Assembly: GCA_028817015.1 (NCBI GenBank)
Contig: JAPPQJ010000218.1
Coordinates: 1-32,833, forward strand
Source: Gammaproteobacteria bacterium
GTDB taxonomy: Bacteria; Pseudomonadota; Gammaproteobacteria; Arenicellales; Poriferihabitantaceae
Reading direction: 5' to 3'
DNA: 32,833 nucleotides
Made by a program: the position numbers and the translations under genes. This document shows positions 602 to 23,200 of the stretch, one piece after another. A model generated the notes under the pieces. That model did no database searches. It was not told the origin of the DNA and saw only the letters and a list, made by a program, of their open reading frames with translations. Numbering within the stretch: the first letter of the stretch is position 1; the number at the start of each line of letters is the position of its first letter.

Positions 602-3072
602 TGGCCACGCTGGAAGTGGACGGCCGGCGCATCGAGGCCGAAGTCGGCGAAATGCTGATCGCCGCCACCGACCGCGCCGGCATCTACATTCCGAGATTCT
701 GCTATCACGAGAAACTGTCGGTGGCCGCCAACTGCCGCATGTGCTTAGTTGAAGTGGGGCACGCGCCTGAGCCGTTGCCGCCGCTGACCGGGGCGCAACC
801 GAAACCCCAACCTTGCAAGCGCGACCAACTGCGCCTGGCGCCCAAGCCGCTGCCGGCCTGCGCCACGCCGGTGACCGACAACATGGTGGTGTTCACCCGC
901 TCCAAATTGGCGCGCGAGGCGCAGCAGGGCACGCTGGAATTCCTCCTCATCAACCACCCGCTGGACTGCCCGGTGTGCGACCAGGGCGGCGAATGCCCGC
1001 TGCAGGACCAGGCGATGGGCTACGGCAACGACGACTCGCGCTACCGCGAAGTTAAGCGCTCGGTGGCCAGTTACGACATCGGGCCGCTGGTGGCGACCGA
1101 AATGACCAGATGCATCCACTGCACCAGATGCGTGCGATTCGGCGAGGAAATCGCCGGGGTCATGGAACTGGGCTTCCCCGGGCGCGGCGAGGCGGCGCAC
1201 ATCGCCACCTTCCTGAACCGCTCGGTGGATTCGGAGGTGTCCGGCAACATCATCGACCTGTGCCCGGTCGGCGCGCTGACCTCCAAGCCCTGCCGCTTCG
1301 CCGCGCGCGCCTGGGAGTTGGAAAGCCACCGCGGCATCAGCCCGCACGACTGCGTCGGCGCCAACCTCAACATCCAGACCCTGCGCGGGCGCGTCGAGCG
1401 CGTGGTGCCGCGCGACAACCCGCAGGTCAACGAATGCTGGTTAGCCGACCGCGACCGTTACAGTTACGAGGCGGTCAACAGCGACTCGCGGCTGAGCGCG
1501 CCGATGGTCAAGGACAACGGCCAGTGGAAGGAAACCGACTGGGAGACGGCGCTGCAGCGCACCGCCGACGGCATTAAGGCGGCCATCGCCGCGGCCGGCG
1601 CCGACGGCTTCGGCGCGTTAGCCGGCTACACCTCCACCCTGGAAGAGTATTTCCTCCTGCAAAAATTGGTCCGCGCTTTGGGCGCCAACCACATCGACCA
1701 CCGCCTGCAGCAAAGCGATTTTCGCGACGATGCGGCGGCGCCGGTTTTCCCGGCCTCGGAGTTGCCCATCGAGCGGTTCAGCGGTGTGCCGGCCGCGTTG
1801 TTGGTCGGCTCGAACATCCGCAAGGAGCAGCCGCTGCTGGCGCTTCGGCTGCGCGCGGCGGCCCGCCACGGTGCGCGCATCGGCATCATCAACCCGCTCG
1901 ACTACGCCCAGAATTTCGACGCCGAAACGCTGGCGCCCGGCGCCGCCGGCCTGGCCGCCGCGGTGGCCGCACTGGCCGTGCAGGTGGCCAAAGCCGGGGG
2001 CGCGGCGATGCCCGGCGAGATTAAGCAATGGGCCGACCTGGCGCCCGCTTCGCAACCCGGCGCCGAGTATGACGCCGCGCACCGCCTGGCGGCGCATCTG
2101 ATTAAAGCCGGCGGCGACGGCGTGGTCATCCTCGGCGTATTAGCCCAGCAGCACCCGCAGGCCAGCGCGATTAAAGCCATCGCGCAGTGGGTGTGCGAGG
2201 CGGCCGGCAGCCGCCTGGCGATTCTGCCGCCGGGCAACAGCGCGGCGGCGTGGTGGGCCGGCTGCGTGCCGCATCGCGGGCCCGGCGGACAGGCGGCGGC
2301 CGGGCGCCCCGGACGCCATGTGGCGGGGATGCTCGCCGAGCCGCGCCGCGCCTATCTGCTGCTGGATAACGACCCGGTGCTCGACGGCATCGACGGGCGC
2401 GCCGCCCTGGAGGCGCTGAACCGCGCCGAGTTCGTCGCCCACATCACCGCCTACCGCAACGGCGCGGCGGCCGAGTGCGCCGATGTGCTGTTGCCGATGG
2501 CGGCGTTTACCGAATCGGCCGGCATTTTCCTCAACTGCGAAGGGCGGGTGCAACGCGCCGAGGCCGCGGCTCGGCCGCTCTTTGAGGCGCGCCCGGCGTG
2601 GAAAATCCTGCGCGTGTTAGGCAATTTCCTCGACCTGCCGGGGTTCGATTATGTGTCGCTCGACCAGGTGAACGCCGATATTCCGCACTTCGAGGGGCCG
2701 CCGACAGCGCGCCTCGGCACGGGCACTATTCCGGCGCGCCCCGACCAACGGGATGCGGACAGCGGCGCCGACCTGTGCCGCCTGCTCGACCTGCCGATAT
2801 ACCGCGGCGATTCCACTGTGCGCAACGCGCCGGCACTGCAGCGGACCGCCGACAACCCGCCGCCGGCGGCGCATGTCAACCACGACTCGGTGGCGCGCCT
2901 CGGCCTGGCCGACGGCGACCCGGTGCTGGTTAAGAACGGCGCCGGCAGCGCCCGCCTGCCGCTGCGCGCCGACCCGAGGGTGCCGCCCGGCTGCGTTTAT
3001 GTGCCGGCCGGCCACGCGCAAACCGCGCCGCTCGGCGGGCACGGGCGGGTGAGCGTGGAGAAAGCGTCATGA
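601..3072 (+). CDS. nuoG: NADH-quinone oxidoreductase subunit G
   Basis: ATG at 601; [73 protein letters not shown]. The listed ORF from 133 extends upstream of the true start. Confidence 0.96.
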
Positions 3073-4115
3073 GGGAATTGTTCTTTCACTTGACCGGGTG
3101 GCTGCCCCAGGCACTTCAGGAGACGTTGTGGATCATGGCCAAGATCACCGCCATCCTGGCGCCGCTGATGGGCTGCGTGGCGTATTTCACCTTCGCCGAG
3201 CGCAAGTTGATCGGCTACATGCAGGTGCGGGTCGGGCCGAACCGGGTCGGGCCGCGCGGCTGGCTGCAGCCGATTGCCGATGCGCTTAAACTGATGATGA
3301 AGGAAATCGTCATCCCGCGCCGCTCCAACAAGGCGCTGTTCCTGATGGCGCCGGTGTTGTCGCTGGCCCCGGCGCTGGCCGCGTGGGCCGTGATCCCGTT
3401 CAGCGACCACCTGGTGCTGGCCGACATAGACGCCAGTTTGCTGTATATCCTGGCGCTGACCTCGATGGGCGTCTATGGCGTCATCGTGGCCGGCTGGGCG
3501 TCCAACTCCAAATACGCCTTCCTCGGCGCGATGCGCTCGGCGGCGCAGATCGTGGCCTATGAAATCGCCATGGGGTTCGCGCTGGTGGGCGTTTTGATGG
3601 TGGCCGGCAGCCTTAACCTGCGCGACATCGTGCTGGGGCAGTCCGGCAGCCTGCTGCACTGGTATTGGCTGCCGCTTTTGCCGCTGTTCCTGGTTTATTT
3701 CATCTCCGGCGTGGCCGAAACCAACCGCGCGCCGTTCGATGTCGCCGAAGGCGAGTCGGAAATCGTCGCCGGCTTCCATGTCGAATACTCCGGCATGGCC
3801 TTCGCGGTGTTCTTCCTCGCCGAATACGCCAATATGATTCTCATCGCCGCGCTCACGGTGATCATGTTCCTGGGCGGCTGGCTGCCGCCGCTTGAAATCG
3901 CGCCGTTCACCCTGGTTCCGCCGCTCATCTGGTTCGGCGTCAAAACCTCGCTGGTGGCCTTTTTGTTTCTGTGGTTTCGCGCCACCTTTCCCCGATACCG
4001 CTACGACCAGATCATGCGCCTGGGCTGGAAGGTGCTGATCCCGGTCACGCTGGTGTGGATCGTGGTGGTCGGCCTGGGGAAATTGTATACGCCGTTCGGC
4101 GCCTTCTTTTCATAA
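3069..4115 (+). CDS. nuoH: NADH-quinone oxidoreductase subunit H
   Basis: [60 protein letters not shown]; 4-bp overlap with nuoG. Confidence 0.98.
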
Positions 4116-4155: not shown

Positions 4156-4647
4156 ATGGGCATCGACATCAAACAATGGTATAAAACCTTCACGCTCAAG
4201 GAGTTGCGCAAAGGCATGTGGGTTACCGGGCGGCGGCTGTTCAGCCGCAAGATGACCATCATGTACCCGCAGGAAAAGACGCCGAAATCGCCGCGCTTTC
4301 GCGGCCTGCATGCGCTGCGGCGCTACCCCAACGGCGAGGAAAGATGCATCGCCTGCAAACTGTGCGAAGCGGTGTGCCCGGCGCTGGCCATCACCATCGA
4401 CTCCGAAGAGCGCGCCGACGGCACGCGCCGCACCACCCGCTATGACATCGACCTGTTCAAGTGCATCTACTGCGGCTTTTGCGAAGAAGCCTGCCCGGTG
4501 GACTCCATCGTCTTGACCGACATCCACGAGTTCCACATGGAGGAAGACCGCGAGAGGTGGATCGGCAAACAGCGCCTGCTGGAAATCGGCGACCAATACG
4601 AAGCCGAAATCGCCGCCGCGCGCAAAGCGGATGCGCCGTACCGGTAA
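4156..4647 (+). CDS. nuoI: NADH-quinone oxidoreductase subunit I (two 4Fe-4S motifs)
   Basis: [17 protein letters not shown] and [18 protein letters not shown]; start chosen at ATG 4156 ([10 protein letters not shown]). Confidence 0.97.
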
Positions 4648-4683
4648 GCGCTCCGGCGGAAATGACGAAAATAAAAAACGGAA

Positions 4684-4935
4684 ATGAGAAAACCGCAAAC
4701 GAGGAGACCGTTTTTAATCGCCGCCGCCCGCGTGTCAGGCGGCGCCGCGCAGGCCGACCGGTATGAGCCGAACACCTGCAAGGTTTATATCCGCGACTGG
4801 TGCGACGGACCGTGCATCGTGATTGAGGGCGGCATGAACCGGGGCATCGCCAAAGCGTTTGAAACGGCCGCCGACCGGCATCGGCGCATCAAAAAGGTGT
4901 GGCTGTGGAGCAACGGCGGCCGGACAGCAAAATGA
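4684..4935 (+). CDS. Small 83-aa ORF of uncertain function; resembles the N-terminal half of a periplasmic ClpP-like (COG3904-type) protein cut off at the SNGG motif; possible gene remnant
   Basis: TCKVYIRDWCDGPCIVIEGGMNRGIAKAFETAADRHRRIKKVWLWSNGG, then stop. The TGA overlaps the ATG of the downstream methyltransferase (ATGA at 4932-4935). Confidence 0.45.
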   Translation: MRKPQTRRPFLIAAARVSGGAAQADRYEPNTCKVYIRDWCDGPCIVIEGGMNRGIAKAFETAADRHRRIKKVWLWSNGGRTAK

Positions 4936-5927
4936 AGAAAACCCGCCCGGTCGCCGAAAGAACCCGGTCGCCGCGCAACCGCACTTTGCGCTGCAGCGAA
5001 CAGGAATCCGCCAAACTCGGTGCCCGTCTCCTTGTGCTCACTTCGCCCGCTCCGGTCAAAAAAATAAAAGACAAAATCATCAATCAGAATATTTTTGACG
5101 CGGCGCCCCGCCTGCCTTCCGGGTTCGTTGATTTGCTGATTCTTGACCCGCCGTATAATTTAACCAAAAACTATCACGGCAAGACTTTTCCGGAGACGGA
5201 AAAAAACAAATACGCCGCGTGGTTTGAAAAAGTCATCCGCTCAATACGGCACACCCTGAAGCCGGCGGCGTCCGTGTATGTGTGCGCGGACTGGAGGACA
5301 TCCATTATCGTCGCCCCCATACTGGAAAAATATTTTCAGGTTAAAAACCGAATCACCTGGGAGCGCGAGAAGGGGCGCGGTGCAAAGTTCAACTGGAAAA
5401 ACAACATTGAGGACATTTGGTTTTGCGTAACGGGCGGGGAGTATTTCTTTAATGTGGATGCGGTTAAACTGAAAAGAAAAGTCATGGCGCCCTATCGTCA
5501 AAACGGGCGCCCCAAGGACTGGCGCGAAGAGGCGGGCGGCAATTACCGCCTTACGCATCCGTCCAACGTGTGGACCGACATATCGATTCCATTCTGGTCA
5601 ATGCCGGAAAACACCGATCACCCGACGCAAAAACCTGAAAAACTGCTGGCCAAACTAATCCTCGCCAGCAGCAGGCCGGGCGACATGATTTTTGACCCGT
5701 TTATGGGAAGCGGCACCACCGCGGTAACGGCCAAAAAACTGCGCCGCCGTTTCGTGTGCGTGGAACTGAACAGGGAATACTGCTGCTGGGGCCAAAAACG
5801 GCTGCTCCAGGCCGCTTCGGGCGACCCCATTCAAGGGTATGCGGGACATGTGTTCTGGGAAAGGAACACCTTCGGCAATCAACCCAAAGACGGTGACCAA
5901 ATGCCGGCACAGGAAACATTGCTGTGA
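4932..5927 (+). CDS. Type II DNA (probably adenine-N6) methyltransferase, beta-class motif order
   Basis: Motif IV LLILDPPYNL precedes motif I FDPFMGSGTTAVTAKKLRRRFVCVELN; HPTQKPEKLL (motif X region). Start taken at ATG 4932 (MKKTRPVAERT). Confidence 0.93.
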   Translation: MKKTRPVAERTRSPRNRTLRCSEQESAKLGARLLVLTSPAPVKKIKDKIINQNIFDAAPRLPSGFVDLLILDPPYNLTKNYHGKTFPETEKNKYAAWFEKVIRSIRHTLKPAASVYVCADWRTSIIVAPILEKYFQVKNRITWEREKGRGAKFNWKNNIEDIWFCVTGGEYFFNVDAVKLKRKVMAPYRQNGRPKDWREEAGGNYRLTHPSNVWTDISIPFWSMPENTDHPTQKPEKLLAKLILASSRPGDMIFDPFMGSGTTAVTAKKLRRRFVCVELNREYCCWGQKRLLQAASGDPIQGYAGHVFWERNTFGNQPKDGDQMPAQETLL

Positions 5928-6592
5928 AATCGTCTTTTTTTTACGGTGACGCCTGCGGGAAGGTGGCGCAAAAGATAAAAAGCGCCATCAACGCCTCTCC
6001 CGATTTCCTTTCCTCGCTGACCGCTTCCAGCCCGCGCGCTGCCGGTGACGCAATTCAATTACTGGTGGAAAAAAAGTTTGAGGCTGCAATCGGCGCCTGG
6101 TGCACGGAGTATTCGTCTTCATTCGCGCGGCGGGCAATGGCGGATTTGGCATTCAAGGACAAAGAAGGGTTTTACTGCATAGTCGATGTGAAAACGCACC
6201 GGCAGGACACAAAATTCAACATGCCTGCGCTTGTGTCGGTCGAGCGGCTGGCCCGTTTTTATGAAGATGACATGAATATTTTCTCAATCCTTCTCATTAA
6301 CTATAAAGTTGTCGACACCCGCGTGCAGGTGGCCAAGGTTGTTTTCTGTCCGATAGAGTTTCTGGATTGGAGTTGCCTTACAATCGGGGCGCTCGGTTGG
6401 GGGCAGATACAAATTGCCAATTCCAATATCATCCGCCGCAGTCCCGGCCAGTCCAGAAAAAGTTGGATGCTTTCCCTGTGCGGCGCCATGCTGGAATTCT
6501 ACCCTAAACAGATTTTGAAAATTGAAAGTAGAATAAACCGGTTTAGTGAAATCGAATCACATTGGCAACGCAAGAAGGACGCTTGGATTTGA
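5924..6592 (+). CDS. Putative Type II restriction endonuclease, PD-(D/E)XK fold, HincII/EcoRV-like
   Basis: GTG start overlapping the methyltransferase stop (GTGA 5924-5927); ADLAFKDKEGFYCIVDVKTHRQDTKF gives D-x13-DVK, resembling the HincII/EcoRV active-site arrangement; adjacent to the cognate-type methyltransferase. Confidence 0.75.
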   Translation: MKSSFFYGDACGKVAQKIKSAINASPDFLSSLTASSPRAAGDAIQLLVEKKFEAAIGAWCTEYSSSFARRAMADLAFKDKEGFYCIVDVKTHRQDTKFNMPALVSVERLARFYEDDMNIFSILLINYKVVDTRVQVAKVVFCPIEFLDWSCLTIGALGWGQIQIANSNIIRRSPGQSRKSWMLSLCGAMLEFYPKQILKIESRINRFSEIESHWQRKKDAWI

Positions 6593-6620
6593 CCGAAACC
6601 GGCTCATTGGCACTCGACAG

Positions 6621-7259
6621 ATGACCTTCCTCCAATTCGCCTTCTACTTCTTCAGCGCGACGCTGATTTTCGCCGCCGCGATGGTGGTGACGGTGCGCAA
6701 CCCGGTCAAGGCGGCGTTGTTTTTAGTGCTGGCGTTTTTCAGCGCGGCTTGTGTGTGGATTACGCTGCAGGCGGAATTCCTCGCCATCGTGCTGGTGCTG
6801 GTGTATGTCGGCGCGGTCATGGTGTTGTTTTTGTTTGTGGTCATGATGCTGGACATCGACCTCGCCGAACTGCGCGCCGGGTTTGCCAGATACCTGCCGG
6901 TCGGCAGCGTCATCGCGGTGCTGCTGGTGGTTGAAATCGCGCTGGCGCTGGCCGGGTCGTTTTCGCCGCAGCGCTTCGCCAACCCGCCCGCGCAAGCCGC
7001 CGGCTACAGCAACACCCGCGAACTTGGCGAGCAACTGTATACCACCTATGTCTATCCGTTTGAAATCGCCGCGTTTATTCTGCTGGTGGCGATTGTCGCC
7101 GCCATCGCACTGACCATGCGCGAGCGGCCCGGCGGCAAGCGCATCGACCCGGCCGGTCAGGTGCGCACGCGGCGCGACCAGCGCCTGCGCATCGTCAAGA
7201 TGAAACCGGCCAACCGGCCGACCGGCCAACCGGCCGACCGGGAGGATCAACCGTCATGA
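6621..7259 (+). CDS. nuoJ: NADH-quinone oxidoreductase subunit J
   Basis: [78 protein letters not shown]; start at ATG 6621. Confidence 0.96.
7208..7239 (+). repeat. Two perfect tandem copies of a 16-bp unit GGCCAACCGGCCGACC in the 3' end of nuoJ
   Basis: Read directly: ggccaaccggccgacc ggccaaccggccgacc. Confidence 0.9.
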
Positions 7260-7561
7260 TCCCGCTGTCGCATTATTTGGCGTTAGGCGCGGCGCTGTTC
7301 GCTTTAAGTGTGGTGGGGATTTTCCTCAACCGCAAGAACGTGGTGATTCTGCTCATGTCCATTGAGTTGCTGCTGCTGGCGGTCAACATCAACTTCGTGG
7401 CTTTCTCGCATTTTCTCCAGGATGTCGCCGGCCAGGTGTTCGTGTTTTTCATTCTCACCGTGGCGGCCGCCGAGTCCGCCATCGGCCTGGCCATCCTCAT
7501 CGTGCTGTTCCGCTCCCGCCGCACCATCAACGTCGAAGAACTGGATTCGCTCAAAGGATGA
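7256..7561 (+). CDS. nuoK: NADH-quinone oxidoreductase subunit K
   Basis: [49 protein letters not shown]; 4-bp overlap with nuoJ. Confidence 0.97.
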
Positions 7562-11024: not shown

Positions 11025-12499
11025 ACCTTGCCTCTTTGAGAGTGACCGCCGCGCTGCCGGAAATTTTCATCGCCCTGGCGGCCTGCGCGATTTTGCTGCT
11101 TGGCGTAACCGGCAAACCGGGCAAGCCGAACCACCGCGCCGCGCTGGCCTGCCCCCTGGCCATCGCCGCGCTGCTGGTGACCGCGCTGCTGGCCGGGTTG
11201 AATTTTCCCGCCGGCGGCGGGGCGGTGGCCGCCTTCAACAACTTGTTCATCGGCGATGCGCTGGCCGGGTTGCTGAAGATCAGCATGTGCCTGCTGTGCG
11301 CCGCCGCCTTTTTATACGGCCGCCGTTACAACCGCGACCGCGGCCTGCTGACCTGCGAGTATTATGTGCTGGGCCTGTTCTCGGTCGCCGGCATGATGGT
11401 GGTGGCCTCGGCCAGCCACCTGCTGACCCTGTATCTCGGCCTGGAACTGATGTCGCTGTGCCTGTATGCGATGGTCGCCTGCCACCGCGACAGCCGACTG
11501 GCCTCAGAGGCGGCGATGAAATACTTCGTGCTCGGCGCGCTGGCCTCCAGCATCCTGCTGTATGGCATGTCGCTGTTGTATGGCCTGACCGGCTCGCTGG
11601 AGTTGCCGGTCATCCGCGCCGCCCTGTTTGCTGAAGCCGCCGACCCCGACGACGCCGCGCTGGCCCTGGCGGTGGTGTTCGTGGTCGTGGCGTTGGCCTT
11701 CAAACTCGGCGCGGTGCCGTTTCACATGTGGGTTCCCGACGTCTATCACGGCGCGCCGACCTCGACCACCGCGTTCCTCTCGGCCGCGCCCAAGGTCGCC
11801 GCGTTCGCCATCGTGTTGCGGCTGCTGGCCGGCGGCCTGGGCGACCTGGCCGGCATCTGGCAGTCGATGCTGGTCATCCTCGCGGTGTTGTCGGTGGCGG
11901 CCGGCAACATCATCGCCATCGCCCAGCATAACCTAAAGAGGATGCTGGCTTATTCGGCCGTCTCGCACATGGGGTTTTTCCTGTTCGGCATCGCCGCCGG
12001 CAGCGCGCAGGGATACAGCGCATCGCTGTTTTATGTCCTGGTCTATGCGGTGATGAGTTTGGGCGCGTTCGGCGCGGTGCTGTGCCTGGCCCGCGGCGAC
12101 GCCGAATGCGACCGCCTCGACGACTTGCAGGGCCTGAGCCGGCGCAGCCCGCGCACCGCCTTCCTGATTCTGATTCTAATGCTGTCGATGGCCGGCATCC
12201 CGCCGACCGCCGGCTTCTTCGCCAAACTCTCGGTGATTCAAGCGTTAGTCGGCGCCGGCCTGGTGTGGGTGGCGGTGGTGGCGGTGCTTCTCGCGGTGGT
12301 CGGCGCGTTCTACTACCTGCGCATCATTAAACTCATGTATTTCGACGACCCCGCGGACGCTTCGCCGGCGACACCGCCCGCCGGCGACCCCCCGGCGCAC
12401 CTCCTGCTGGCTTTCAACGCGCTCATCATCATCGCCATTTTGCCGTGGATCGGCGCGTTGATTTCGCTGTGCAACGCGGTGATTGCCGGCGCCGTTTAG
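11021..12499 (+). CDS. nuoN: NADH-quinone oxidoreductase subunit N
   Basis: YLGLELMSLCLYAMVACHRDSRLASEAAMKYFVLGALASSILLYGMSLLYG; FHMWVPDVYHGAPTSTTAFLSAAPKVAAFA. Confidence 0.97.
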   Translation: MNLASLRVTAALPEIFIALAACAILLLGVTGKPGKPNHRAALACPLAIAALLVTALLAGLNFPAGGGAVAAFNNLFIGDALAGLLKISMCLLCAAAFLYGRRYNRDRGLLTCEYYVLGLFSVAGMMVVASASHLLTLYLGLELMSLCLYAMVACHRDSRLASEAAMKYFVLGALASSILLYGMSLLYGLTGSLELPVIRAALFAEAADPDDAALALAVVFVVVALAFKLGAVPFHMWVPDVYHGAPTSTTAFLSAAPKVAAFAIVLRLLAGGLGDLAGIWQSMLVILAVLSVAAGNIIAIAQHNLKRMLAYSAVSHMGFFLFGIAAGSAQGYSASLFYVLVYAVMSLGAFGAVLCLARGDAECDRLDDLQGLSRRSPRTAFLILILMLSMAGIPPTAGFFAKLSVIQALVGAGLVWVAVVAVLLAVVGAFYYLRIIKLMYFDDPADASPATPPAGDPPAHLLLAFNALIIIAILPWIGALISLCNAVIAGAV

Positions 12500-12522
12500 C
12501 CCTGGCCATCGCCGGCGCCGCC

Positions 12523-13698
12523 ATGAAAAAAATCAACCTCGGGCTGCTGTTCGGCGGGCGCTCCTGCGAACACGAGGTGTCGGTGATTTCGGCGCGCTCC
12601 ATTCTCCAGGCCATCGACCGAAGAAAATACGCGGTCAGCCTCATCGGCATCGACAAGGCCGGCCACTGGCGGCTCGCCGATGGCGATGACTTGGACGCGC
12701 TGCTCAGCGGCGGCGAAGTTGCGGCGCGGCCGCCGCCAGGCGGCGGCGACTCGACCGGCGCGGCCGCCGGCCGCCCGGTCACCCTCGACCTGCACCATCA
12801 CGGCAACCTGTCCGTGGCCGGCCCACCGCCCGCCGCCGGCCGTCACCTGTTGCCGGCCCTTGATGTTGTCTTCCCGGCGTTGCACGGCACCTTCGGCGAA
12901 GACGGCACCTTGCAGGGTGTGCTCGAGATGGCCGGGGTCCCATACATCGGTTGCGGCGTGGCCGCCTCGGCGCTGGCCATGGACAAGACTCTGGCCAAAA
13001 AGGTCTTCCACGCCGCCGGCATCCCGCAGGCGCCGCACATCGACATTACCGCACCGCAGTGGCGGCGAGCGCCGGCCGACATCATGCGGCGCTGCGAAAC
13101 GCGCCTGGGCTGGCCGGAGTTTGTCAAGCCGGCCAACTTGGGCTCCAGCGTCGGCGTCAGCAAAGCGCATGACCCGGGCGAGTTGAAGGGCGCCGTTGAA
13201 TTGGCGTTGCGCTTCGACGCCAAAATCGTCATCGAGCAATCCATGGAGAATTGCCGGGAAGTGGAATGCGCGGTGCTCGGCCATGCCGGCGACGCGCGCG
13301 CCTCGGTGGTCGGCGAGATCATCCCCGGCGCCGAGTTCTACGACTACACGACCAAGTATCTGGACGATAAATCCGAGTTGGTGGTGCCGGCAAAAATACC
13401 CGGCCCGGTCGCCGAACGGGTGCGCGAGTTATCCGTCAAAGCGTTCAGAGAAATCGGCGGTGACGGCCTGGCGCGCGTCGATTTCCTGGTCGGGCGCGAC
13501 ACTGGCCAGGTGACACTGAACGAAATCAACACCCTGCCCGGCTTCACGCCGATCAGCATGTATCCGCGCCTGTGGGCGGCCAGTGGCGTGCCCTACCCCG
13601 AACTCATCGACCGCCTGATTGAACTGGCGCTTCAGACCCACCGCGGCAAGGCGAAGTTGCAGCGCGCGATTGAACCGGGGGACTGGCCCGGGGATTGA
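12523..13698 (+). CDS. ddl: D-alanine--D-alanine ligase
   Basis: NLGLLFGGRSCEHEVSVISARSI; GTFGEDGTLQGVLEMAGVPYIGCGVAASALAMDK; NEINTLPGFTPISMYPRLW; ATG at 12523. Confidence 0.95.
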   Translation: MKKINLGLLFGGRSCEHEVSVISARSILQAIDRRKYAVSLIGIDKAGHWRLADGDDLDALLSGGEVAARPPPGGGDSTGAAAGRPVTLDLHHHGNLSVAGPPPAAGRHLLPALDVVFPALHGTFGEDGTLQGVLEMAGVPYIGCGVAASALAMDKTLAKKVFHAAGIPQAPHIDITAPQWRRAPADIMRRCETRLGWPEFVKPANLGSSVGVSKAHDPGELKGAVELALRFDAKIVIEQSMENCREVECAVLGHAGDARASVVGEIIPGAEFYDYTTKYLDDKSELVVPAKIPGPVAERVRELSVKAFREIGGDGLARVDFLVGRDTGQVTLNEINTLPGFTPISMYPRLWAASGVPYPELIDRLIELALQTHRGKAKLQRAIEPGDWPGD

Positions 13699-14016
13699 GT
13701 GGAGCCGCGCCCGCCGCCCGCGCCGTTTAGAATCACCTGCCGCTGTGCGGGTGTGAACATTTTCATCGGCCACATGACTCCCCGGATCGACCGCGAAGAG
13801 GCGGCGCTTACCGGGCGTGAATCTGCTCGCGCACCGCTTTGACCACCTCGCCGCAACCGTCGGCGACCCGCCATCGTCGAACCGGCGGCGTTGGTGCAGG
13901 CGCCCGCCGTTGCGGCCGGCGGATGAAGTCGGTGGACACTTGGTGGGTGGAGTCCGGGAACATCCCGCACCCTGTGATGACCCTGTGCAAATTATCAGCA
14001 TGATTTATGCTTGAGT

Positions 14017-14025
14017 TGTGGATAA
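14017..14025 (-). promoter_or_regulatory. DnaA box (TGTGGATAA, reverse of TTATCCACA) upstream of dnaA
   Basis: Perfect 9/9 match in the ddl-dnaA intergenic region. Confidence 0.7.
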
Positions 14026-14179
14026 ACGCCGGCGTTGGAATTACACTCAGTCGTCTCCAGGAAACATCGGTTGGCGGCTTGGCGGTGGTGGATGGAACGG
14101 TATTCGGTGGTGAAACGATGTTTGTCGATTAATTTACCGGTATGCCGGGACCCGGGTTTTTATTGCGTGGATTTTGCCG

Positions 14180-15511
14180 ATGTCTGAAACTTGGAATGAT
14201 TGTGTAGCCCGACTAAAAGCCCAGATTTCGGAGGCCGACATCAGTGCCTGGGTTGCACCGTTGCATCCGGTGCGCCGGGACGACACGCTGAAACTGCTGG
14301 CTCCAAACCGCTATGTCCTTGATTATGTAAGAAAAAACCTGTTCCACCTGATCGAAAAGAAGATCCTGGAAATGAATAGCGGCATTCGGCTGGTGCAGGT
14401 TGAGATCGGCGGGCATGGCTCCGCCGACGCTGTCCGTTCCGCAGGTTCCGCCCGCCTTGCAGCAGGTAACCGCTCGCCGCAGCCCTATGCGGGCGGCGCA
14501 ATGAACGATAACTTCACCTTCGAAAAACACGTCGAGGGCAATTCCAACCAACTGGCCCGGGCGGCGGCGCTGCAGGTTGGTAAAAACGCCGGCCGCGCGT
14601 ATAACCCGCTTTTCATCTATGGCGAGGTAGGCCTTGGCAAGACCCACTTGATGCAGGCTGCAGGCCATCTGATGCAACACACGGACAGGTCCGCCAAAGT
14701 GATGTATGTCCGCTCGGAGTTATTCGTCAACGACATGGTGAATGCGTTGAAAAACAACGCCATGCATCACTTCAAGCGCCATTACCGGTCGCTGAGCGCG
14801 TTGCTGATCGACGATATTCAGTTTTTCGCCAAGAAAACCCAGTCGCAGGAAGAGTTTTTCCACACCTTCAATTCGCTGTTGGAAGGCCAGCGGCAGATCA
14901 TCATTACCAGTGACCGTATTCCGAATGCCATCACCAATGTGGATGCGCGGTTAATCTCGCGGTTTAGCAGCGGCCTCACCGTGGGCATTGAACCGCCGGA
15001 ACTCGAAACGCGGGTGGCCATTTTAGAAAAGAAAGCGCTGGAACGGGGCATTGAGTTGCCGAAAGAAGTTGCTTTTTTTGTCGCCCACGCAATTCGCTCC
15101 AATGTGCGCACATTGACCGGCGCGTTGCATCGCATCCTCGCCACCGCCGGTTTTACCGGCCGGCCGCTCGATGTTGATCTTGCCCGGGATGCGTTGAGCG
15201 ACCTGTTAGCCCACCAGCAGAAACAAATCAGCATCGAGAATATTCAGCAAACCGTGGCCGAGTATTACAAACTGCGGGTCACCGATCTGCTGTCGAAAAA
15301 ACGCTCCAGAAATATCGCACGACCACGGCAACTGGCGATGTTCCTCGCCAAAGAATACACCAACCTTAGCCTGCCCCAGATCGGCGCTCGTTTTGGCGGC
15401 CGGGACCACACTACCGTGCTGTATGCCTGTCGCAGGATCGAGGAATTGATCCAAACCGACCCTGGAATCAAGGAAGACTACCGAAATTTGGAACGCTCGT
15501 TTGGTGTATAA
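14180..15511 (+). CDS. dnaA: Chromosomal replication initiator protein DnaA
   Basis: YNPLFIYGEVGLGKTHLMQAAGHLM; LLIDDIQFFAKKTQSQEEFFHTFNSLLEGQRQIIITSDR; domain IV GGRDHTTVLYACRRIEELI. Start ATG 14180 preferred; TTG 14174 is possible. Confidence 0.98.
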   Translation: MSETWNDCVARLKAQISEADISAWVAPLHPVRRDDTLKLLAPNRYVLDYVRKNLFHLIEKKILEMNSGIRLVQVEIGGHGSADAVRSAGSARLAAGNRSPQPYAGGAMNDNFTFEKHVEGNSNQLARAAALQVGKNAGRAYNPLFIYGEVGLGKTHLMQAAGHLMQHTDRSAKVMYVRSELFVNDMVNALKNNAMHHFKRHYRSLSALLIDDIQFFAKKTQSQEEFFHTFNSLLEGQRQIIITSDRIPNAITNVDARLISRFSSGLTVGIEPPELETRVAILEKKALERGIELPKEVAFFVAHAIRSNVRTLTGALHRILATAGFTGRPLDVDLARDALSDLLAHQQKQISIENIQQTVAEYYKLRVTDLLSKKRSRNIARPRQLAMFLAKEYTNLSLPQIGARFGGRDHTTVLYACRRIEELIQTDPGIKEDYRNLERSFGV

Positions 15512-15726
15512 GGTGTATAACTTGTCGATTTTCTGTGGATAGACAGCATGAAGTGCTGAGTAGCCCGTGGAAAAATTTTTTACCCACAACCCGCGGTTTC
15601 GTTTTACAATACTTTCCAACCGCTTCACTCAAGTTCGGTCGAAATATATGCCCTTGATAAGGAAGCGAAAATACCACTTATCCACAAATCTACAGGCCCT
15701 AACTGCTACTGCTACCAAGTAAACAG
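15512..15726. promoter_or_regulatory. Putative oriC/DnaA-binding region between dnaA and dnaN
   Basis: TTATCCACA at 15678-15686 (perfect DnaA box), CTATCCACA on the minus strand at 15534-15542, TTACCCACA at 15580-15588, and an adjacent AT-rich tract AAAAATTTTTTA (15571-15582). Confidence 0.6.
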
Positions 15727-16848
15727 ATGAATATCATTATAGACAAAGAGAAAATTCTCCCCGCTTTGAATTTAGTCAGTAGCGTGGTGGAAGGACGTCA
15801 AACATTGCCGATGTTGTCCAATTTATATTTCAGTTTGAATGACGGAGTGCTTGAGATAGTCGGAACAGATATGGAAATGGAGGTTTCCGAAACCGTTAAT
15901 GAAGTCCAGGGAGACAATGGGTCTTTTACGGTATCCACAAAGAAATTCCTTGATATAGTCCGCATATTGCCCGAAAATTCGTCGATCTCCGTCAAACAGG
16001 AAAAAGACAAAGCGGTGGTCACTTCGGCAAGAAGCCGATATTCACTTAAGACATTACCCGCTGATGACTTCCCCAGAATCAAAGTCGAGAACTGGGAGGA
16101 GCGGTTAAAAGTGGGTCAGTCGGCATTGAGAGAGTTGCTTGGGAAAACTTCCTTTGCGATGGCTGTCCAGGATGTGCGCTATTACTTGAATGGCGTATTG
16201 TTTGAGTTATCAGCGAAACAACTTCGATCCATCGCGACCGATGGCCATCGTCTCGCTCAGTCGGATATGGACACCGATCTGGACCTGAATGAAACCAGGG
16301 AGTTAATCATACCGCGCAAGGCCGTCATAGAAATCAACCGGTTTATCGGCGGTGAGGATGCCGACAACGAAGAGGATGTTCATTTGACGGTCGAGATGAA
16401 CCGTAATCACCTCAAGTTGACTAAGAACAATATGGTACTTACCACTAAACTAATCGATGGAAAATTTCCCGAATATAAGGGGGTTTTAGATAATAAGTTC
16501 GATATTTTGGTCAACGTCAATCGGTTGGATTTTATCGGTGCCTTAAGCCGTGTTGCGGTTTTGACTGAGTCACACCAGCACCAGGGAATTAAAGTCAACC
16601 TTGAGGAAGGGGGGATACGTGTGACGACGACTAATTTGGATCAGGAAGAGGCGGAGGATTATGTGGATGTCGAGTATAGCGGCAAGCCCATCGAGATCGG
16701 ATACAATGTGAACTATCTAATCGACGCTGCCCGGGCTGGCCATAGCGAGATGATAGAACTCCATCTACAGGGAAGTGACGGCATCTGCGTCATGAAACAA
16801 CCCGGTGATGACCGCACGATCTGGCTGATTATGCCTATGCGCATTTAG
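15727..16848 (+). CDS. dnaN: DNA polymerase III beta subunit (sliding clamp)
   Basis: NIIIDKEKILPALNLVSSVVEGRQTLPMLSNLYFSL; RSIATDGHRLAQSDMD; C-terminal IWLIMPMRI; position after dnaA. Confidence 0.98.
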   Translation: MNIIIDKEKILPALNLVSSVVEGRQTLPMLSNLYFSLNDGVLEIVGTDMEMEVSETVNEVQGDNGSFTVSTKKFLDIVRILPENSSISVKQEKDKAVVTSARSRYSLKTLPADDFPRIKVENWEERLKVGQSALRELLGKTSFAMAVQDVRYYLNGVLFELSAKQLRSIATDGHRLAQSDMDTDLDLNETRELIIPRKAVIEINRFIGGEDADNEEDVHLTVEMNRNHLKLTKNNMVLTTKLIDGKFPEYKGVLDNKFDILVNVNRLDFIGALSRVAVLTESHQHQGIKVNLEEGGIRVTTTNLDQEEAEDYVDVEYSGKPIEIGYNVNYLIDAARAGHSEMIELHLQGSDGICVMKQPGDDRTIWLIMPMRI

Positions 16849-16863
16849 CGCCTGGTTCAGTGA

Positions 16864-16879
16864 TGTTTCATGTGAAACA
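16864..16879. promoter_or_regulatory. parS: parS-like site 1: TGTTTCATGTGAAACA (inside GATGTTTCATGTGAAACATC)
   Basis: 15/16 match to the well-known ParB-binding consensus TGTTTCACGTGAAACA; origin-proximal. Confidence 0.75.
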
Positions 16880-17017
16880 TCGCTTGGGAGTAAAAATCAG
16901 GCGATTCGTTGAGATGTTGCTCGCGGGTTTTGTGAATTTCGTCACTACAATCCATCCCACCAGTTTCAGGTAATCCAATTTGGCTGGGTTGCCACCAAGT
17001 TATTTTTAATTCGACTA

Positions 17018-17033
17018 TGTTTCATGTGAAACA
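17018..17033. promoter_or_regulatory. parS: parS-like site 2: TGTTTCATGTGAAACA (inside CTATGTTTCATGTGAAACATAG)
   Basis: Core identical to site 1, 154 bp downstream, same variant central base, with different complementary flanks. Confidence 0.75.
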
Positions 17034-17292
17034 TAGCGATTCAAAAGAATCATATAACCCGGTCAAGACTCGCTGAGAGATGCCGTTGGCAGGCGATTCG
17101 CGTTTTGCCTTGAGCATCCGATATCCGGATTATCGCCTTTCTCTCATCGCTTCCGGCGGTCTGCAAGCGGGTATTCCGAGTCATGCCCAGAAGATTTTAA
17201 CTGATTGATTTTATTAATAATAAATTCCATAACCAGGGAGGTTTACCGGGCTGGAACATGATAAAATCCCCGCCTCATTGTTATTGGGCTAA

Positions 17293-19689
<2,397 letters not shown>

Positions 19690-22115: not shown

Positions 22116-22571
22116 CTATGCCTGGGTCCCGTCCGCGGGGGCGCTTTCGGCGATTTCAAAATCGTGGGTGATGGCCGCGGTTTTCTCCAGCATGCGCGTG
22201 ACCGAGCAATATTTTTCCATTGACAGCGACACCGCGCGCGCCACCTTGTTGCGGTCCAGGCGCTCCCCACGCAGGCGGAAGCGTATATGGATGCGAGTGA
22301 ACACCGCGGGCACCGCGTCGGCGCGCTCGGCTTCAATGCCGATTTCGCAGGCGCTGACTCGCTGGCGGCTCTTGTGCAGGATCGACAACACGTCGATGCC
22401 GCTGCAGCCGCCGAGCCCCATCAGCACCATTTCCATCGGCCGCGGCCCGGTGTTGTCGCCGCCACCGCCGCCCGCCTCGGGGGCGGCCGACATCACCACG
22501 CGCCGCCCGTTGTCCCCCACCGCCTCGAAATTCATCCCCCCGACATGCGCCAGTGTCACCCGCACGGCCAC
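22116..22571 (-). CDS. OsmC/Ohr family protein (YhfA-like)
   Basis: GPRPMEMVLMGLGGCSGIDVLSILHKSRQRV...VARAVSLSMEKYCSVTRMLEKTAAITHDFEI. Confidence 0.9.
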   Translation of the reverse strand: MAVRVTLAHVGGMNFEAVGDNGRRVVMSAAPEAGGGGGDNTGPRPMEMVLMGLGGCSGIDVLSILHKSRQRVSACEIGIEAERADAVPAVFTRIHIRFRLRGERLDRNKVARAVSLSMEKYCSVTRMLEKTAAITHDFEIAESAPADGTQA

Positions 22572-23200
22572 CCCCTCCGGCGCGCCGCCAGCAGGTCATC
22601 GACAAAAGCCGTGACCGCGCTGCGCAGTTTGCCGATATACGCTTCATCTCGAAACGCCCGGATCAAGCGGGACTCATAATCGGGATGGTAACTGAAGAAA
22701 TCACACCAACGCCGCCCGGTAATCCACAACTGCCCCTGCACTTGCGGAACATGCGGCGGCGGCAGCCGCAGCGAGCGCAAATAATCGCGGTGCGTGTGCT
22801 CCATCGGGCACTTGATTTCCAGCAATCCCTCCGTCCCCACCAGGCCGTCCGGGCTGGCGGCGACCAGCCGCTTGCGGTTGAGGTATACCAGGCCGGTTTC
22901 GGTTACCGCCGCGCCGGTGCGCGCTTCATATGCCGAGCGCGCTTCGGGTTCCAACTCAATGCCGCGCACCATCCATGGGCTGGATTGGGACTCCCGCCCC
23001 CTGCCGTTGTGGTATTCGCATACCAGTTCGTGCAGATACTGCGGCGCGGAATCGGAGCGCCGCCCCGATGCGGTCAAAATGCGCTTGAAATGGGATGCGG
23101 TGGGAATACCGCGCCGGGCCTCGAACCAGGCCGCCGAGCCTTGCACAACATCCAGTTGCACCGGCTGGTCGCGGATTTTCCGCTCCCGGGTCGACAACAT
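22556..23200 (-). CDS. YqaJ-type viral recombinase / lambda-exonuclease-family nuclease
   Basis: GSAAWFEARRGIPTASHFKRILT, RGIELEPEARSAYEARTG, LVAASPDGLVGTEGLLEIKCPMEHTHRDYL, PQVQGQLWITGRRWCDFFSYHPDY; D...ExK active-site pattern. Confidence 0.88.
   Translation of the reverse strand: MLSTRERKIRDQPVQLDVVQGSAAWFEARRGIPTASHFKRILTASGRRSDSAPQYLHELVCEYHNGRGRESQSSPWMVRGIELEPEARSAYEARTGAAVTETGLVYLNRKRLVAASPDGLVGTEGLLEIKCPMEHTHRDYLRSLRLPPPHVPQVQGQLWITGRRWCDFFSYHPDYESRLIRAFRDEAYIGKLRSAVTAFVDDLLAARRRGWPCG

Follow-up and report, generated by a model that had tools for sequence, protein, structure and literature searches.

A predicted Type II restriction-modification pair within a complex I operon and differing gene contents at the nuoI-nuoJ junction of related genomes

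Restriction-modification genes among housekeeping genes

Few gene arrangements are as conserved as the operons of respiratory complexes. Accessory genes have been reported to avoid operon interiors (PMC5635113), and the horizontal-transfer hotspots described in the same work resemble the locus reported here in that accessory genes are replaced rapidly at one position flanked by core genes. Restriction-modification (R-M) systems can kill cells losing them, and mobile R-M units can insert with a long duplication of the target and undergo tandem amplification (Kobayashi group; PMC3031569, citing Nobusato 2000). The drg gene of Neisseria at leuS/dam (PMC4269198) is likewise a restriction gene at a fixed place among housekeeping genes; however, it is one gene at one locus, whereas a series of unrelated R-M modules was found here in core energy operons. 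No description of R-M genes within a nuo operon, or of mobile R-M units inside a core respiratory operon, was found in the open-access literature searched.

The gene pair in the window

The window, i.e. the whole stretch of 32,833 nucleotides that was analysed (G000:C155:1-32833), belongs to a 2.52-Mb MAG that consists of 220 contigs and has a contamination of 3.77%. As listed in Table 1, a methyltransferase (MTase) gene and a nuclease gene lie on the same strand between nuoI and nuoJ, and all ORF coordinates given in the original prediction were confirmed together with this arrangement. Stop/start overlaps of 4 bp join the relic ORF to the MTase (ATGA at 4932) and the MTase to the nuclease (GTGA at 5924), and the nuclease stop is separated by 28 bp from the nuoJ start. 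The relic ORF at 4684-4935 and both overlaps had been overlooked earlier. The cassette had also been described as AT-richer than the nuo genes, which held true for GC (0.536 in the MTase and 0.496 in the nuclease versus 0.56-0.66 in the nuo genes), for GC3 (0.65 and 0.59 versus 0.80-0.89) and for codon usage, in which both genes deviate from the nuo set. The lower GC and atypical codons of both genes support the horizontal acquisition that had been proposed.

Table 1. Features at and around the nuoI-nuoJ insert of the window
Feature	Position	Strand	Start codon	Stop codon	Context and basis
nuoH	3069..4115	+			upstream context; tblastn matches to relatives
nuoI	4156..4647	+	ATG 4156		left border of the insert; 4Fe-4S Pfam matches; 82-91% identical within the genus
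relic ORF, 83 codons	4684..4935	+			truncated N-terminus of a 216-aa secreted-looking G002 gene
beta-class DNA methyltransferase, probably N6-adenine	4932..5927	+	ATG 4932	TGA 5927	Pfam N6_N4_Mtase, PF01555, 1.1e-41
HincII-like PD-(D/E)XK endonuclease (predicted), 222 aa	5924..6592	+	GTG 5924	TGA 6592	profile, predicted fold, catalytic residues
nuoJ	6621..7259	+	ATG 6621		right border of the insert; PF00499 1.1e-40
nuoK	7256..7561	+			downstream context

In the MTase, DPPY at residue 72 precedes DPFMGSG at residue 255, which is the beta order, and the catalytic motifs are intact. PADLOC assigned the protein to MTase_II (1.6e-61), and a sequence search of the PDB retrieved MboIIA, RsrI and CcrM as relatives. 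These enzymes have the beta motif order and the PF01555 domain in common with the window MTase but are only distant relatives of it, and its partner nuclease is HincII-like rather than of the MboII or RsrI type. Comparison with the copy of the congeneric genome G003 gave a dN of 0.19 and a dS of 1.9, the nuo genes showing a dS of 0.77-0.94 in the same comparison. The low dN/dS of the MTase indicates purifying selection and thus speaks for function.

The nuclease carries the catalytic pattern D74...D88-x-K90, which was invariant in six homologues. When searched alone, it matched the HincII family PF09226 with an E value of 0.0023 and 17.7 bits, under the Pfam gathering cutoff of 23.7, while a six-sequence profile of the nuclease family matched HincII in the PDB with an E value of 5e-05. 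In a Foldseek search with an AlphaFold2 model (pLDDT 79.4, pTM 0.78), the best 24 matches were all HincII chains, with TM scores of 0.38-0.53 and large rmsd, and HincII was ranked first, followed by SwaI and EcoRV. The nuclease thus has a predicted fold, the D...DxK pattern and a local core sequence match in common with HincII (PDB 1kc6, PF09226), although it scores below the Pfam cutoff and only ~90 residues can be aligned by sequence. On the strength of the model and profile, it is predicted to share the HincII fold and active site and to be a HincII-like enzyme. The family is rare, being present in 5 of 369 genomes of the class. No relative was found in the plasmid and phage collections searched; two contigs of IMG/VR carry the MTase and nuclease pair.

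A homologous MTase adjoins the nuclease in seven of the eight other genomes that have this nuclease (G003, G150, G038, G010, G020, G422 and G324), with MTase identities of 52-71% where measured; in the eighth, G023, only part of the nuclease was seen, where a contig ends, and no MTase. This linkage argues for a real Type II R-M pair, a prediction also borne out by the intact motifs and the HincII-like nuclease. The nuclease would be expected to cut DNA in which a short site lacks the methylation added by the MTase. Control by a C protein was considered and dropped, since the sole upstream ORF is the relic, which has no family matches. In a distant gammaproteobacterium (L264, G333:C113 4374-6401), a distant HincII-like nuclease was observed with a different MTase directly after nuoN.

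The nuoI-nuoJ junction in related genomes

In the 76 other genomes of the order that were compared, nuoI and nuoJ lie -1 to 134 bp apart and none has an insert; a GTDB-wide search added 80 loci, in which the gap did not exceed 437 bp. The two genes are normally adjacent, as had been assumed, and the comparison supports insertion into the nuo operon. Among the genomes and loci compared, inserts were confined to the four genomes of the genus (the window genome G000, G001, G002 and G003) and to G004, from another genus of the same family. An ancestral and widespread arrangement had been named beforehand as an argument against the prediction; this is half true, as the site is occupied in all four genus genomes, but false outside the genus.

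One junction has different gene contents in these related genomes. Within the genus it holds the HincII-like pair in two of four genomes, a fusion of an MTase to an Mrr-like domain in one and an array of such fusions in one. Every inserted gene, those of G004 included, has the same direction as the operon. In G003, the contig runs from nuoI into the same MTase (71%) and the same nuclease (~75%) and ends there; the nuclease gene appears to be frameshifted. In G001, a 480-aa MTase-Mrr protein is encoded between nuoI and nuoJ, the junction being divided over two contigs with an exact 55-bp end in common; an alternative assembly branch was dropped, as the nuoI end occurs on only two contigs. In G002, one contig carries nuoI and then the start of an MTase-Mrr gene at its end, and the nuoJ contig has three MTase-Mrr copies, two of them complete, whose ends are 100% identical and whose central region differs, together with an intact 216-aa gene matching the window relic. 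As the exact repeats of the array are longer than usual short reads, its order is uncertain. This tandem array (L055, G002:C66 8627-13402) may vary in specificity. In G004, the junction holds an unrelated MTase and an HNH/endonuclease VII protein (PADLOC REase_II, 1.6e-53). The genomes compared are short-contig MAGs; the assemblies break at or near nuoI-nuoJ in three of the four genus genomes, and within the genus the insert is fully spanned by one contig in the window only.

Repeats of ~90-100 bp of the nuoJ start lie between the MTase copies of G002, a tandem arrangement that resembles the mobile R-M units described by the Kobayashi group (PMC3031569). The window insert differs from those units in that it lacks such a flanking repeat: no target duplication was found at its flanks, only imperfect repeats of 14-20 bp.

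A tree of nuoH and nuoI was used to follow the history of the site. The four genus members were monophyletic (100/95), and the window genome and G002 were sisters (90/87). G004 grouped weakly (84/75) with G005 and G011, which have nothing inserted, and an independent origin of the G004 insert is therefore most likely; descent of the G004 and genus inserts from a common one was rejected on this tree. That G004 was entered at this junction too may be due to chance. Insertion events at nuoI-nuoJ that are demonstrably independent number two or a few.

Over ~80 codons, the relic ORF is 58-60% identical to the ORF on the G002 contig C66. The dS between the two (0.50) equals that of the nuo genes (0.49-0.53), which suggests that the gene was probably at the junction before the lineages of the window species and G002 separated; together with a dN of 0.27, the comparison indicates that the gene probably lost constraint in the window lineage. 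Homology of the relic running past its stop codon was judged spurious. The recognition region of the G001 MTase is 87% identical to that of one G002 copy, with a dS of 0.92 over the whole overlap (nuo genes, 0.56-0.67), and from this likeness the two are likely orthologous. Since the MTase is more diverged than the nuo genes between the window and G003, common descent of the pair at the site is only possible. In the history that we propose, the genus ancestor probably had an MTase-Mrr fusion at nuoI-nuoJ, the gene for the secreted-looking protein would have joined the site before the window species and G002 diverged, and most of the earlier content would have given way to the HincII-like pair in the window lineage.

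Other core operons, expression and alternative readings

Genes flanking related MTases of the genus were inspected and identified with Pfam support. In the window genome, the pyruvate dehydrogenase operon has an MTase between aceF and lpd (G000:C144 2014-4292, L157), two genes that directly follow each other in relatives such as G001 and G003. G001 has livH-MTase-Mrr-livM, with a 4-bp overlap with livH and a 4-bp gap to livM (L266, G001:C52 1949-5458). The remaining examples come from G002, where the ATP synthase operon holds a DUF6338 gene, a small ORF, an MTase and a glyoxalase-like gene between atpG and atpD (L275, G002:C105 1488-6642), and an hdr-like cluster runs from an hdrA-like gene through an MTase-HNH fusion and a HAD hydrolase to hdrC/hdrB-like genes. 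In the same genome, a second complex I junction reads nuoA-nuoB, 15 bp and MTase-Mrr at a contig end (L267, G002:C102 1-2149), sucB is followed after 13 bp by an MTase at a contig end, and ilvC overlaps an MTase-HNH fusion. The remaining MTase loci of the genus lie outside such operons and, as MTase genes are very numerous in these genomes, some inside operons are expected by chance.

The region scanned for promoters contained one promoter-like match versus a chance mean of 1.6, and terminator-like matches in the region scanned for them lay only inside coding sequence. As neither a promoter nor a terminator stands out, and given the 4-bp overlaps and the operon direction, the pair is most likely expressed as part of the transcript of the nuo operon. 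The co-transcription with complex I that had been predicted is therefore likely from the common strand, the overlaps, the short distance to nuoJ and a promoter scan at chance level. An R-M pair in such an operon would gain steady expression, and the insert would leave nuoJ-N transcribed. If only insertions that do not block the downstream nuo genes survive, the uniform orientation of the inserted genes fits. Given the MTase genes in several other core operons of the lineage, the general process that we propose is that mobile R-M genes enter core operons repeatedly and are retained if co-directional and non-polar; post-segregational killing may stabilise them.

The reading that we favour, and consider fairly probable, is that a horizontally acquired Type II pair resides in the complex I operon, that nuoI-nuoJ is a turnover site, and that mobile R-M genes repeatedly colonise the core operons of this lineage and live off their transcription. 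We advance only tentatively the broader proposal that R-M genes, including one-gene MTase-nuclease fusions (HNH or Mrr-like), have systematically spread into the energy operons of the genus (complex I at two junctions, ATP synthase, pyruvate/oxoglutarate dehydrogenase, hdr-like and branched-chain amino-acid transport), with essential transcripts as protected landing sites and the tandem array at nuoI-nuoJ varying recognition domains.

The strongest competitor of the favoured reading, which we nevertheless judge rather unlikely, is that one founder insertion in the genus ancestor created a permissive gap whose content was later swapped by recombination between shared flanks, with no site preference, addiction or respiratory tie and with G004 as a coincidence. 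The monophyly of the genus with all members occupied, the apparent orthology of the G001 MTase and one G002 copy, and the relic gene common to the window and G002 with its nuo-like dS all agree with such a founder, but other core operons of the genus have also been entered, by MTase-based modules too. That the MTase-nuclease pair is inactive or decaying seems improbable: the nuclease gene of G003, which lies where a contig ends, seems to carry a frameshift near its start, that of G020 is spread over two frames and the relic ORF has decayed at the same site, yet in the window both genes are full length and their motifs intact.

It would be more surprising still if the MTase had taken on the role of an epigenetic regulator, its dose tracking complex I expression and the nuclease being a leftover. 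Purifying selection on the MTase and the MTase without adjoining nuclease in the aceF-lpd operon of the window genome would suit this role; against it, the window nuclease is intact with all catalytic residues present, and the content of the site varies between species, a poor fit to a conserved regulatory role. An assembly chimera, i.e. an R-M fragment wrongly joined to nuo contigs, might be suspected in a MAG with this many contigs and this level of contamination, but it is hardly credible given that nuoF-nuoN all lie on a single 52.9-kb contig of the window genome and that the independent MAG G003 has the same MTase and nuclease after nuoI.

Repeated co-directional entry of R-M genes into such operons offers a natural test of whether essential operons suit mobile defence genes because of selfish addiction or because of free transcription. 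It also shows that sister species can come to differ in their DNA-modification repertoire through turnover at one junction of a core operon.

Elsewhere in the window, the region downstream of nuoN (12445-19689) holds, by eye, ddl-like, dnaA, dnaN and gyrB genes, and no recF-sized gene was seen by eye between dnaN and gyrB. An ORF resembling, by eye, a YqaJ/lambda-type exonuclease lies on the minus strand at 22556-23200, just ahead of tryptophan biosynthesis-like genes.
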